Source: Candidatus Moraniibacteriota bacterium (lineage in GTDB: Bacteria; Patescibacteriota; Minisyncoccia; Moranbacterales; UBA1568). From it: a stretch of 42,703 nucleotides of DNA. Shown here one piece after another: positions 838 to 7,538 of this stretch. Position 1 is the first letter of the stretch; each line of letters begins with the position of its first letter. The notes under the pieces were generated by a model. The model did not search any database. It was given only the letters and a program-made list of their open reading frames with translations, and was not told the DNA's origin. The DNA is taken from positions 67,818 through 110,520 of the forward strand of contig JAGOBM010000004.1 in the NCBI GenBank assembly GCA_017983435.1, read 5' to 3'. Made by a program: the position numbers and the translations under genes.

Positions 838-1137
838 TTAGTCCCTCGCTTCGAAGCCGATCGGGTTCTGGGGCGGTTCGACGGCGGAGACTTCGCCGAA
901 GCGGGATTCGTATTTCTTGAGATTGTCGGCCAGCGTGGCGACCATGCGCTTCATATGGCTCGGGCTCACGATGATGCGGGCGTTGAGCGTACCCGTCGGC
1001 GGAAACATATTCAAGAAATCCAGGACGAACTCCTCCTGGGTGTGCATCACCTGCATCATGTTCGCATACTCCCCTTTCATCTTCTCATCCGTCGCCTTGA
1101 TCTGTATCTGCTTCGATTGGTTATCCTGCTGAGTCAT
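838..1137 (-). CDS. DUF3467 domain protein
   Basis: A 99-residue soluble protein of the DUF3467 family; function unknown. Family signatures are the segment IQIKATDEKMKGEYANMMQV, then HTQEEFVLDFLNMFPPTGTL and IVSPSHMKRMVATLADNLKK. I place the start at the ATG at 1135-1137 (MTQQDNQ); a longer frame from 1164 would add nine residues (MYSIADYKT) encoded by what looks like the promoter itself (TGTGTATAGT and TTATAA). With that start there is no Shine-Dalgarno and a very short leader. It is a single-gene unit or heads the doubtful ORF at 557-823. Confidence 0.88.
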   Translation of the reverse strand: MTQQDNQSKQIQIKATDEKMKGEYANMMQVMHTQEEFVLDFLNMFPPTGTLNARIIVSPSHMKRMVATLADNLKKYESRFGEVSAVEPPQNPIGFEARD

Positions 1138-1173
1138 AGTTTTATAATCTGCTATACTATACACATTCAGACG

Positions 1174-1272: not shown

Positions 1273-1313
1273 TGTAACATATAATGACGGCCGTCAGATT
1301 ATGTTACAATTTG
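1273..1313. repeat. Left inverted repeat / 36-bp dyad of the PaaX/Cas2-like unit
   Basis: Positions 1286-1313 are the exact inverted copy of 1938-1965 (28 bp). The site is itself a dyad at 1273-1308: 9-bp arms TGTAACATA and TATGTTACA, 4-bp spacers, and a central perfect 10-bp palindrome GACGGCCGTC. The stop codon of the enclosed gene (1304-1306) falls inside it. On the plus strand it contains TGTTACAAT, an extended -10-like element pointing into the gene, antisense to it. Confidence 0.9.
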
Positions 1314-1933
1314 TTTTTAGGAGTTTTCTTTGCTGTTATTGATTTTTTCGGGCTGAAAAAATGCTTTTTGAGTACCTGTTCATTATCAATCCAATCGACC
1401 GTCATAATCCGCACAAATGATTCAGCGTCATACAGTGCTACTAATTCTGCGAGCTGCTTTTCACACGGATGCGGTGATACGAAGACGCTCTGCTGAATCC
1501 TATAGAATTTCAGCTCCCAAAGATGCTCCCGAAGGATAGTCCGGAACTCACGGTTCTTCTCCGGGATATCAAACATCACAATACGCCACTTCCCGTCCCA
1601 TTGCCGCTTGTTTTTGAAGCGGATCGAATTGCCGAACAGAGATTGGATACGAGCTTGTCGTTTCCCCTCCTCCGTCAAGACAAGCTGGAATGATCCGTCT
1701 GGCTGCACAATCTCCCGCACAAGTCTCTCGTTGCAAAGACGCTGCACGGATCGCTTGATACTCCGCTGATCAACCTTTTTCCACTCCCGTATCAATATCC
1801 CGAGCTTCCGATAATACCGTAGCGACGAAGTCTCTAGCCCGAGTGTGATTCCTCCCACGAGCAGGATAAGCAGTTTCTGTTGCGTCGGTCCGAACTTGTA
1901 CATACTTTTTTGTATTTCTACTGATTTTTCCAT
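1304..1933 (-). CDS. PaaX-type winged-helix regulator with Cas2-like C-terminal domain
   Basis: A 209-residue protein. Residues about 12-85 (from YKFGPTQQKLLILLVGGITL through QRLCNERLVREIV) look like a winged helix; residues about 93-180, beginning WDGKWRIVMFDIPEKNREFR and including YRIQQSVFVSPHPCEKQL, match the ferredoxin-like fold shared by PaaX C-termini and Cas2, with the Cas2-position aspartate in FDI. Such proteins in Patescibacteria genomes are often auto-named Cas2, but no cas1 or CRISPR array is in the window, so a DNA-binding regulator is the safer reading. The C-terminus is basic (KKSITAKKTPKNK). The gene is bracketed by inverted repeats; the -10-like TACAAT at 1941-1946 lies in the upstream repeat seven bases before the ATG, implying a leaderless, probably autoregulated transcript. 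Mobility is possible but no transposase is present. Confidence 0.8.
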   Translation of the reverse strand: MEKSVEIQKSMYKFGPTQQKLLILLVGGITLGLETSSLRYYRKLGILIREWKKVDQRSIKRSVQRLCNERLVREIVQPDGSFQLVLTEEGKRQARIQSLFGNSIRFKNKRQWDGKWRIVMFDIPEKNREFRTILREHLWELKFYRIQQSVFVSPHPCEKQLAELVALYDAESFVRIMTVDWIDNEQVLKKHFFSPKKSITAKKTPKNKL

Positions 1934-1937
1934 TTTT

Positions 1938-1979
1938 CAAATTGTAACATAATCTGACGGCCGTCGTATTAGGTAACAA
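1938..1979. repeat. Right inverted repeat / operator-like dyad upstream of the PaaX/Cas2-like gene
   Basis: Exact inverted copy (1938-1965) of 1286-1313. The dyad at 1942-1979 has the core GACGGCCGTC (1956-1965) with imperfect arms TTGTAACATA and TAGGTAACAA (8 of 10 positions symmetrical). On the minus strand it includes an extended -10 (TGTTACAAT) immediately before the gene start, so a protein bound here would cover the promoter. Confidence 0.9.
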
Positions 1980-2094
1980 TATTATTTAGGAGGAGGGCTG
2001 GGTCTATGCGTAATGAATTGCATAACAATCTATAGCTGGAAATTTCTTTTCTCCTCTCTTTTTACTAAAAATGCGATTGACCTATCTTCTTCTC

Positions 2095-3555
2095 CTAAAG
2101 ATTTCTCTCCAGTCGCTGGCTAATAATCCCCCCTATCTCCTTAAAAAGCTTCTTTCTTTTCTCTTGTATACCCGTGTCTCTTTCATTGGAAAGATTTTCA
2201 TAATAATGATCAATAATATTATCAGAAACTATATGAAGATAAGAAAATCTTTTCTTTATCTCGTTACAAGCCTTTGCCATATGGCCAATTTCTGGATCAA
2301 TAAACACCCCGAACTTTTGAAAAAATTCAACAGCATCTTTTGTCTCATCGATTACTGATCCACACGTAACATGACTTCCAAACAAAACATCTTTGCGATC
2401 AGAAATTTCATTTTCAAAAATATTATTCCACGCAACAGAGTCTCCATGTATATAGCTTTTTGAGCCACTAGCTATCCATTCGTTCGGAACAATACCGGAT
2501 TTAAGACTCCCAAGCTTTCCTATATATACAAATGTCGTGAATGAATGGAACCGAGCTAAAAATTTTATCAGAAAATAAGCAGCGTCTCCCCAGATACTGA
2601 ACTGACACCCCAGTAAAAGCACTCTGTAAGAACCAATATTTCCAATTTTCCATTTAAAATCCCCATCTCCGTCAAACTCTACATCCTCGAATAACCCGAT
2701 ACGATCAATATTCCCGAAAAGAATAATATCTGCTGCTGGAATACTCCCCAAGTTAGTATTCTTAAACGCCTGAAAAATCCTCTCATCATCAGCATAGATA
2801 TAAGATACCTCTTTCTTTTTGTTCAGATTGCAAAAATATGTAGCGACAAGATTAGCATAATGACGTATATAATCATATCCGGGAAAACAACAGAGATAGA
2901 GCGTATCTCCATCCAAAAAAGCCGTTGGTCTTTCGAAATTAAATAACTTATCATTCTTCTCATCTGTCGAAACATGCGCGCTCCGATCATGGCTACCTAT
3001 AACGCGTACTTTCGAAAACTCATCCTGTTTTGATTGAATAAGGTGATGCATCTTCATTTCTATATACCGATGAAGAGCATCTCCCATGGAATGATCACTC
3101 GATAAACAGGCCGAAACATCAAAAAATTCCTTATTCGATGAAATATTCTTAACGAATTGCAAAACGGTATAGTCTCGCAGCTCCGGCACCTCCTTCAACG
3201 AAACAAACTGAACTACTTCATGTTTCCCTTCTTCCATATTGCGAGCCTCGCTTTCATCGGCCACCTCGGCTATGTAGTACAATCCGAGCCAGTGCGTATT
3301 CTGAATGATCATTTTTTTCGTTGTCAACAGCTCTAGGCTTGTAATACGAAGATTGGTCTCTTCTAAAATTTCTCGAATCAGTGAAGACTCAATATCTTCT
3401 CCAAATTCAACTGTTCCACCGGGCAAAAGCCATGCTCCCGCGCCAATCTTTTGATCTGATTTCTTTTTCAAAAGCAACACGCGCTCCTTGGTCCTATCAA
3501 AAACAATAGCTCGCGCGTAAAAACGAAATATCGGCTGATTTTGATCACTGATCAT
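2095..3555 (-). CDS. Nudix hydrolase fused to a nucleoside phosphorylase-like domain
   Basis: A 486-residue two-domain protein. Residues 10-140 form a Nudix domain with the box at 47-69: G47, E53, then REILEET (61-67); the usual late glycine is N68. Residues about 205-455 resemble the nucleoside phosphorylase/nucleosidase superfamily: YIGKLGSLKSG (344-354) sits where the phosphorylase GTAGGL loop lies, VFIDPEIGHMA (417-427) where the ribose-binding VDMEt motif lies, followed by HIVSDN. Nudix enzymes cleave nucleoside diphosphate derivatives; the pair could act in sequence on one nucleotide. The start is the ATG at 3553-3555; upstream in-frame codons give only a poor TTG start. No Shine-Dalgarno. 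The gene is clearly AT-richer than its neighbours, suggesting transfer. The C-terminal assignment is by motif only. Confidence 0.72.
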   Translation of the reverse strand: MISDQNQPIFRFYARAIVFDRTKERVLLLKKKSDQKIGAGAWLLPGGTVEFGEDIESSLIREILEETNLRITSLELLTTKKMIIQNTHWLGLYYIAEVADESEARNMEEGKHEVVQFVSLKEVPELRDYTVLQFVKNISSNKEFFDVSACLSSDHSMGDALHRYIEMKMHHLIQSKQDEFSKVRVIGSHDRSAHVSTDEKNDKLFNFERPTAFLDGDTLYLCCFPGYDYIRHYANLVATYFCNLNKKKEVSYIYADDERIFQAFKNTNLGSIPAADIILFGNIDRIGLFEDVEFDGDGDFKWKIGNIGSYRVLLLGCQFSIWGDAAYFLIKFLARFHSFTTFVYIGKLGSLKSGIVPNEWIASGSKSYIHGDSVAWNNIFENEISDRKDVLFGSHVTCGSVIDETKDAVEFFQKFGVFIDPEIGHMAKACNEIKKRFSYLHIVSDNIIDHYYENLSNERDTGIQEKRKKLFKEIGGIISQRLERNL

Positions 3556-3670
3556 GCGCTTAAATAGAAAGTTTACACTGCCAGTATACACCCATCCCCC
3601 GAGGCAGCTTCCAAAGCTAGCTGTAAGCAGCAACTTAATTTAATAATTTCCGTATCTTTCATGGATATAT

Positions 3671-7478: not shown

Positions 7479-7508
7479 ATTATAAAAAATACTTAGCACT
7501 CTTGTCAA
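7479..7508 (-). promoter_or_regulatory. hrcA: Promoter of the hrcA operon
   Basis: Minus-strand consensus promoter TTGACA (7503-7508), 18-base spacer, TATAAT (7479-7484). The -35 box lies in the spacer of the CIRCE element, so HrcA binding would occlude RNA polymerase. The transcript would have a leader of about 180 bases before hrcA, in which I see no ORF or riboswitch. Confidence 0.9.
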
Positions 7509-7519
7509 GAGAGTGCTAA
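7493..7519. promoter_or_regulatory. CIRCE operator
   Basis: Perfect canonical CIRCE: TTAGCACTC (7493-7501), nine-base spacer, GAGTGCTAA (7511-7519). It is the HrcA binding site and shows that the operon is negatively controlled by its own first product. Confidence 0.98.
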
Positions 7520-7538
7520 GTATGGAAGACGGCTACCC

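Follow-up and report, generated by a model that had tools for sequence, protein, structure and literature searches.

Across the Patescibacteria, genes for proteins that join a winged helix (wHTH) to a Cas2-like domain lie between pairs of matching palindromes, and these palindromes are mobile in their own right, a finding that suggests a form of mobile DNA not described before. In this phylum of ultra-small bacteria (CPR), Cas2-like proteins unaccompanied by cas1 are common and are usually dismissed as misannotated Cas2. Here, we describe one such protein and its homologues, collectively abbreviated PAX, in the window, a stretch of 42,703 nt from Candidatus Moraniibacteriota bacterium (GCA_017983435.1, contig JAGOBM010000004.1, positions 67,818-110,520 of the forward strand; genome G000, a 795-kb assembly), and in related genomes. 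The layout recurs phylum-wide, the two ends match within an element, and loci with and without the unit occur in one genus; moreover, single palindromes move without the gene, even into coding sequence, and compensatory changes keep them palindromic. We consider it probable that palindrome, gene and palindrome form a small mobile unit of about 0.7 kb in which PAX acts on the palindromes, working much as a REPtron does with an unrelated protein. That the wHTH-Cas2 protein is itself the enzyme mobilising hairpin palindromes, by a mechanism other than those of DDE, HUH, serine or tyrosine recombinases and widespread in Patescibacteria, is put forward more tentatively. A literature search, with subscription papers and preprints outside its range, returned nothing relevant as a published account of this arrangement.

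A winged-helix and Cas2-like gene bracketed by palindromes

The inverted copies in the window, which the original prediction had described as perfect 28-bp repeats enclosing a single gene, are exact at 28 of 28 nt (Table 1), against a chance expectation of about 1e-8 (own arithmetic) for a perfect 28-nt inverted pair in 42.7 kb. Extended to 41 nt (1273-1313 and 1938-1978), the arms match at 88%. Both arms are individually palindromic over about 36-40 bp (TGTAACATATAATGACGGCCGTCAGATTATGTTACA; ATTGTAACATAATCTGACGGCCGTCGTATTAGGTAACAAT), and the perfect 28 nt form the inward-facing portion of each palindrome. One gene is indeed bracketed, although enclosure is not strict because the left arm overlaps its stop codon; ATG 1903 is its likely start, since homologues begin at the same MYKFGP/MKxLGP motif. 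The extended dyad occurs once in the assembly, and a paralogue, 75% identical, on contig C8 of the same genome has its own palindrome pair.

Table 1. Coordinates of the window unit, its parts and its neighbours (window positions)
Feature	Position	Strand	Remarks
Downstream end	1273-1313		36-bp palindrome 1273-1308; 1286-1313 is a perfect inverted copy of 1938-1965; overlaps stop codon
PAX gene, wHTH + Cas2-like	1304-1933	-	Longest ORF 209 aa; likely start ATG 1903 gives 199 aa, MYKFGPTQQK...
N-terminal winged helix region	1619-1903	-	Three helices and wing, LTEEGK motif; from model secondary structure and profile matches to HTH proteins
Cas2-like (PaaX_M) domain	1391-1606	-	D122, R131, Q147 and S149 invariant in 57/57 homologues
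Upstream end	1938-1980		40-bp palindrome 1941-1980; 1938-1965 is a perfect inverted copy of 1286-1313; in the gene's probable promoter region
DUF3467 protein, neighbour outside element	838-1164	-	Orthologues in G013 and G021 near dnaK without PAX element
NUDIX + weak phosphorylase-like ORF, neighbour outside element	2095-3633	-	No full-length orthologue in family

The predicted combination of a winged helix and a Cas2-like domain was borne out by Pfam matches to PaaX_M (PF20803, 2.1e-22) and CRISPR_Cas2 (PF09827, 5.6e-6; 26.9 bits against a cut-off of 23.8), with no other Pfam domain in the window protein and, specifically, no HUH/Y1 transposase domain (PF01797); among aligned homologues, 57 of 57 match PaaX_M and 52 of 57 match Cas2. 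Domain searches likewise found no known transposase catalytic domain (DDE, Y1, serine or tyrosine) in PAX. In an AlphaFold model (mean pLDDT 83, pTM 0.59), a Cas2 fold comes after the winged helix, the pTM leaving the relative placement of the two domains uncertain, and the solved structures nearest to the model are E. coli PaaX, then Cas2 and VapD. The four signature residues of the Cas2-like domain are invariant throughout the aligned homologues (Table 1). The corresponding stretch of E. coli PaaX is WDGKWLLLLSEGLD...LAPSL and does not keep D122 and Q147, according to a BLASTP alignment, which was used because MAFFT --add aligned the Cas2 region poorly. Nuclease activity of the domain is assumed, from its conserved residues only. 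The gene does not adjoin cas1, its window neighbours in the neighbourhood examined being DUF3467, NUDIX and dnaK genes. PADLOC matched Cas2 models only, and a reading of PAX as a defence system was therefore rejected. As to carriage, there was no phage match and one weak PaaX match on a plasmid.

Matched ends and movement of the unit

A single-protein query against genome contigs returned no relatives, whereas an alignment query returned more than 550. PAX homologues occur in 16 of 28 genomes of the family, 168 of 286 of the class and 125 of 381 in a sample of the phylum; a genome of the class can hold as many as 11 copies, some of them carrying internal stops. We compared the flanks of 73 homologue loci with those of 466 ORFs taken from the same contigs as controls. 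Palindromes scoring at least 11 on both sides were found at 29% of homologue loci and 0.4% of controls, and palindromes scoring at least 9 on either side at 86% and 13%, respectively. The repeats thus flank homologues far beyond the control level without flanking all of them: some lack detectable palindromes, and clear two-sided palindromes are confined to about a third. Upstream and downstream palindromes are equally frequent at homologue loci (48% each), which argues against a random downstream copy. The original prediction had named such a copy, or homologues without flanking repeats, as refuting it, and neither outcome applies cleanly. In other classes of the phylum both ends are present at 8 of 24 loci, some of them identical over 40 bp.

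Within a single element, the ends match each other at 30.3 of 36 positions, compared with 16.3 of 36 between unrelated elements, and an element's own partner end is its best or second-best match in 20 of 21 cases. The palindromes share a format of approximately [G/T]TAACA, about seven variable self-complementary bases, RCGRYCGY, their complement and TGTTA[C/A]. The centre hardly varies (C at -3 in 99%; RCKR/YMGY), and a second conserved position is CA at -13/-12; no GT(A/G)G foot was found within 18 nt of the centre in the column frequencies of 70 palindromes. Palindrome similarity tracks PAX similarity weakly but significantly (r = 0.26; 0 of 2000 permutations). No Rfam family matches the palindromes, and a terminator reading was rejected, as there are no T-tracts and no terminator-like site in the region.

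Flanking genes differ for most homologues, while some sites are common to relatives, implying that movement of the unit is slow. L021 and L031, two elements of one genus, align at 77% across the full span bounded by the outer edges of their palindromes, and their flanks are unrelated. The proposed comparison of empty sites in relatives yielded orthologous loci without the unit in same-genus genomes, the closest available being different species, with junctions and target duplication too diverged to read. Between the RNase J and TrpRS genes, the unit is present in G005 and G006; same-genus G003 and G004 have a gap of about 115-136 bp, and in these two and in G000 the interval is a plain terminator-promoter gap lacking the unit. 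Similarly, the TrmU-AlaRS interval holds a unit in G083 and measures about 60 bp in same-genus G145. As for the window site, G013 and G021 have dnaK close to DUF3467 with no PAX there, and only this wider interval is comparable as an empty site because the family offers no full-length orthologue of the NUDIX gene. As for very recent transposition, no near-identical units were found in different contexts, and close relatives share sites; full units appear, from these sequence comparisons, to move rarely.

Some additional features were seen at these sites. The dnaK-DUF3467 interval is a variable spot with different genes in each genome, and the 512-aa ORF found there in the window fuses NUDIX to a weak nucleoside-phosphorylase-like region. 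Upstream of the grpE/dnaK region, the window carries a textbook CIRCE (HrcA operator) palindrome, ATACTTAGCACTCTTGTCAAGAGAGTGCTAAGTAT, at 7489-7523. In G006 (L106, 6530-7630), two identical palindromes lie 110 bp apart past a degenerate PAX unit, together with a second copy of the RNase J gene 3' end and terminator, looking as though the insertion were bordered by a duplicated target end.

Palindromes without the gene

The complete genome G083 contains 77 palindromes scoring at least 13, against 1 in a Markov null. Besides PAX-unit ends, ordinary terminators and REPs, they include 11 solo palindromes of PAX format, four of which match PAX ends of their own genome at 31-33 of 36 positions (12-22 of 36 against another genome's ends) and six of which have no close match to any extant PAX end of that genome. 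Solos have entered coding sequence: sufS of G083 carries an in-frame 45-nt insertion within its SFN..GIHPHD motif, containing a 36-bp palindrome identical at 32 of 36 positions to an own-genome PAX end, and tig carries a solo inside a low-complexity insertion. Both are absent from G145, as are the G083 solos beside the ROK, PUS, ComEC, argS and thiolase genes. The tatD 3' end does bear a palindrome of PAX format in G145, but not the same one. Of nine intergenic solos in G083, six are no more than 30 bp from a stop codon, where 14% would be expected, and among the 14 intergenic solos of G083 and G141 five lie between convergent genes and none between divergent ones. Such positions, near stops, between convergent genes and within genes, are a poor fit to promoter operators.

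Dispersed solos of the same type are present in G083, G141, G015 and G019; in the window's own genome, none was found in about 0.3 Mb. The core ACTTTTCTTGCAATTGCAAGAAAAGT occurs in 16, 4 and 2 copies in G015, G019 and G023, respectively, and in none of 24 other family genomes, and its reversed control is absent from all family genomes. G015 and G019 carry PAX genes flanked by this core, and no cognate PAX was recognised in G023. Furthermore, bases outside the searched core covary (score 0.240 compared with 0.074 when shuffled; 0 of 500), with arm pairs 5-8 forming in nearly all of 15 sequences through two to four pair types. One solo (L263/L264; G015:C22 and G019:C8) has persisted at orthologous positions in two species, between HAD-like and nucleotidyltransferase genes, with arms that differ (ATCTT/AAGAC and ACTCT/AGAGT) and are still largely complementary.

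Candidate roles of PAX and related systems

In the mechanism we propose, PAX, probably as a Cas2-type dimer, would bind the palindrome in the form of either a duplex dyad or a hairpin (extruded or single-stranded), and may then cut, pair or join it through its Cas2-like domain. A solo palindrome or the two-ended gene unit would thereby be copied or moved, preferentially beside stop codons. At the upstream end, PAX would also repress its own promoter; this added role is compatible with mobility and is likely, because a -10-like sequence follows the upstream palindrome in L166 and L106. The original prediction had offered a minimal mobile element carrying its own regulator and possibly mobilised in trans, or else a regulator with an operator copied at both ends. 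Its mobile-element part is supported by recurrence in different places, by the empty sites and by the mobility of the palindromes themselves. Its 'own regulator, trans-mobilised' part was not established, the Cas2-like protein being the best candidate for the factor acting on the ends in a genome without Y1; the regulator alternative may hold as an additional role and explains the solo palindromes poorly.

That alternative, the chief rival, in its full form makes PAX an autoregulated PaaX-type repressor, with operators at both gene ends (DNA looping) and solos as operators of its regulon. The PaaX_M domain and PaaX-like fold place the protein in homology with a known repressor family, the palindrome overlaps the probable promoter in several loci (in L166 and L106, a TGTGATATACT-like -10, judged by eye, lies just inside the upstream palindrome), more similar proteins tend to have more similar palindromes, and the L263/L264 solo has been retained. 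We nevertheless judge this account rather unlikely. Solos sit inside sufS and tig, at 3' ends or between convergent genes and in no divergent intergenic region, most are missing from the same-genus relative with rapid turnover between sister species, and downstream ends are found as often as upstream ends. Arms that vary while remaining self-complementary are also unexpected for operators read by base, and the window protein scores 32 bits against the 264.55-bit cut-off of the PaaX equivalog TIGR02277. Compared with the PaaX repressor itself (PF20803/TIGR02277; E. coli PaaX, 8a39), PAX shares a homologous winged helix and Cas2-like core, the WDGKW motif and an expectation of palindromic DNA sites. 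However, it is shorter, lacks the C-terminal PaaX extension, keeps D122, R117 and Q147 where E. coli PaaX does not, and is encoded by multi-copy, mobile genes outside catabolic operons.

Movement could instead come from elsewhere, with a RAYT/Y1 transposase or replication template switching spreading the palindromes and PAX units riding as passive passengers between two of them. Template-directed repair can maintain perfect palindromes, and Y1/HUH (Y1_Tnp) genes exist in several of these genomes. These genes serve as an internal control, which makes the passenger account improbable: those of G083, G141 and G006 have palindromes of their own on their flanks (CCGAACTCGG, CTATAGAGGTC, GGGAGTTCGACTCCC, CTCCGAGGAC), the expected picture for RAYT/REP (PMC2817692), and none of these is of PAX type; the PAX core is also missing from the Y1 loci of G015 and G019, and no Y1_Tnp was found in G000. 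Palindrome type, moreover, follows PAX subfamily and genome. RAYT was accordingly rejected as the cause of the PAX palindromes, and PAX is better regarded as a parallel system than as a RAYT by-product. A further account, in which PAX is a Cas2/VapD-like RNase that processes mRNA or controls its decay by acting on hairpins in transcripts of the palindromes, while the palindromes spread by other means, strikes us as very improbable. It draws on the Cas2 and VapD RNases among the top structural neighbours, the invariant metal-binding Asp of Cas2 and the frequent 3' UTR positions of palindromes, but leaves the mobility of the gene unit and the upkeep of both DNA ends unexplained, and the N-terminal winged helix points to DNA; nor do the palindromes match any Rfam family.

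Separately, an ordinary REPtron was seen in this CPR phylum. In G083 (C1, about 410-418 kb and 565-571 kb; L214, L222), a RAYT gene at 410626 lies amid CCGAACTCGG REPs, which are dispersed and partly in frame within genes.

A REPtron consists of a RAYT/TnpA-REP gene between two inverted REPs, together with dispersed REPs (PMC2817692, PMC8266576). The PAX system resembles it in having one gene between two inverted palindromes, dispersed solos, a cognate palindrome type for each gene and complementary changes that preserve palindromicity. Unlike in REPtrons, the protein is wHTH plus Cas2-like rather than HUH/Y1, the palindromes, at 36-44 bp, exceed REPs in length, have a core centred on CG and lack the GTAG foot, no more than 16 copies of one palindrome type were seen, and the gene unit also moves. 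It is thus similar to REPtrons in working principle; by protein it is not a member. With a classical insertion sequence the unit has in common terminal inverted repeats and presence/absence polymorphism, and it differs in lacking a known transposase catalytic domain. The Cas2/VapD ferredoxin-fold nucleases share the domain fold, the invariant Asp and the QxSVF motif; in PAX, however, the domain is fused to a winged helix and flanked by palindromes, with no adjoining cas1 in the neighbourhood examined, and the protein is not a stand-alone one of about 90 aa like the Cas2 of CRISPR adaptation.

If PAX acts on the palindromes, it would provide a second, protein-unrelated solution to the REP/RAYT layout, give the Cas2 fold a DNA-mobility role outside CRISPR and be one way in which reduced genomes acquire in-frame peptide insertions. 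PAX units also offer a testable system for the spread and perfection of DNA palindromes. Rickettsia palindromic elements (RPE; PMC10969869) are similarly palindromic DNA inserted in frame in protein genes, as in sufS and tig of G083, although PAX solos are about 36-45 nt rather than about 150 nt and are linked to a candidate mobilising gene.

Other in-frame palindromes were also encountered. The window's own genome carries ATCTCCGCCCGAGGCGGATCCGCCCTGGGCGGAGAT in trpS (G000:C8:26744-26779; L176, 1708-1743; LAAGI-SARGGSALGG-DP), at a site where many relatives have a longer insertion. A further family, GGACATCC...GGATGTCC, lies in frame at similar places of a cysS-like gene in two different Patescibacteria (L058, 9393-9426; L090, 7228-7261) and in trmU of G145 (L328), and looks like a Rickettsia-type palindromic insertion.
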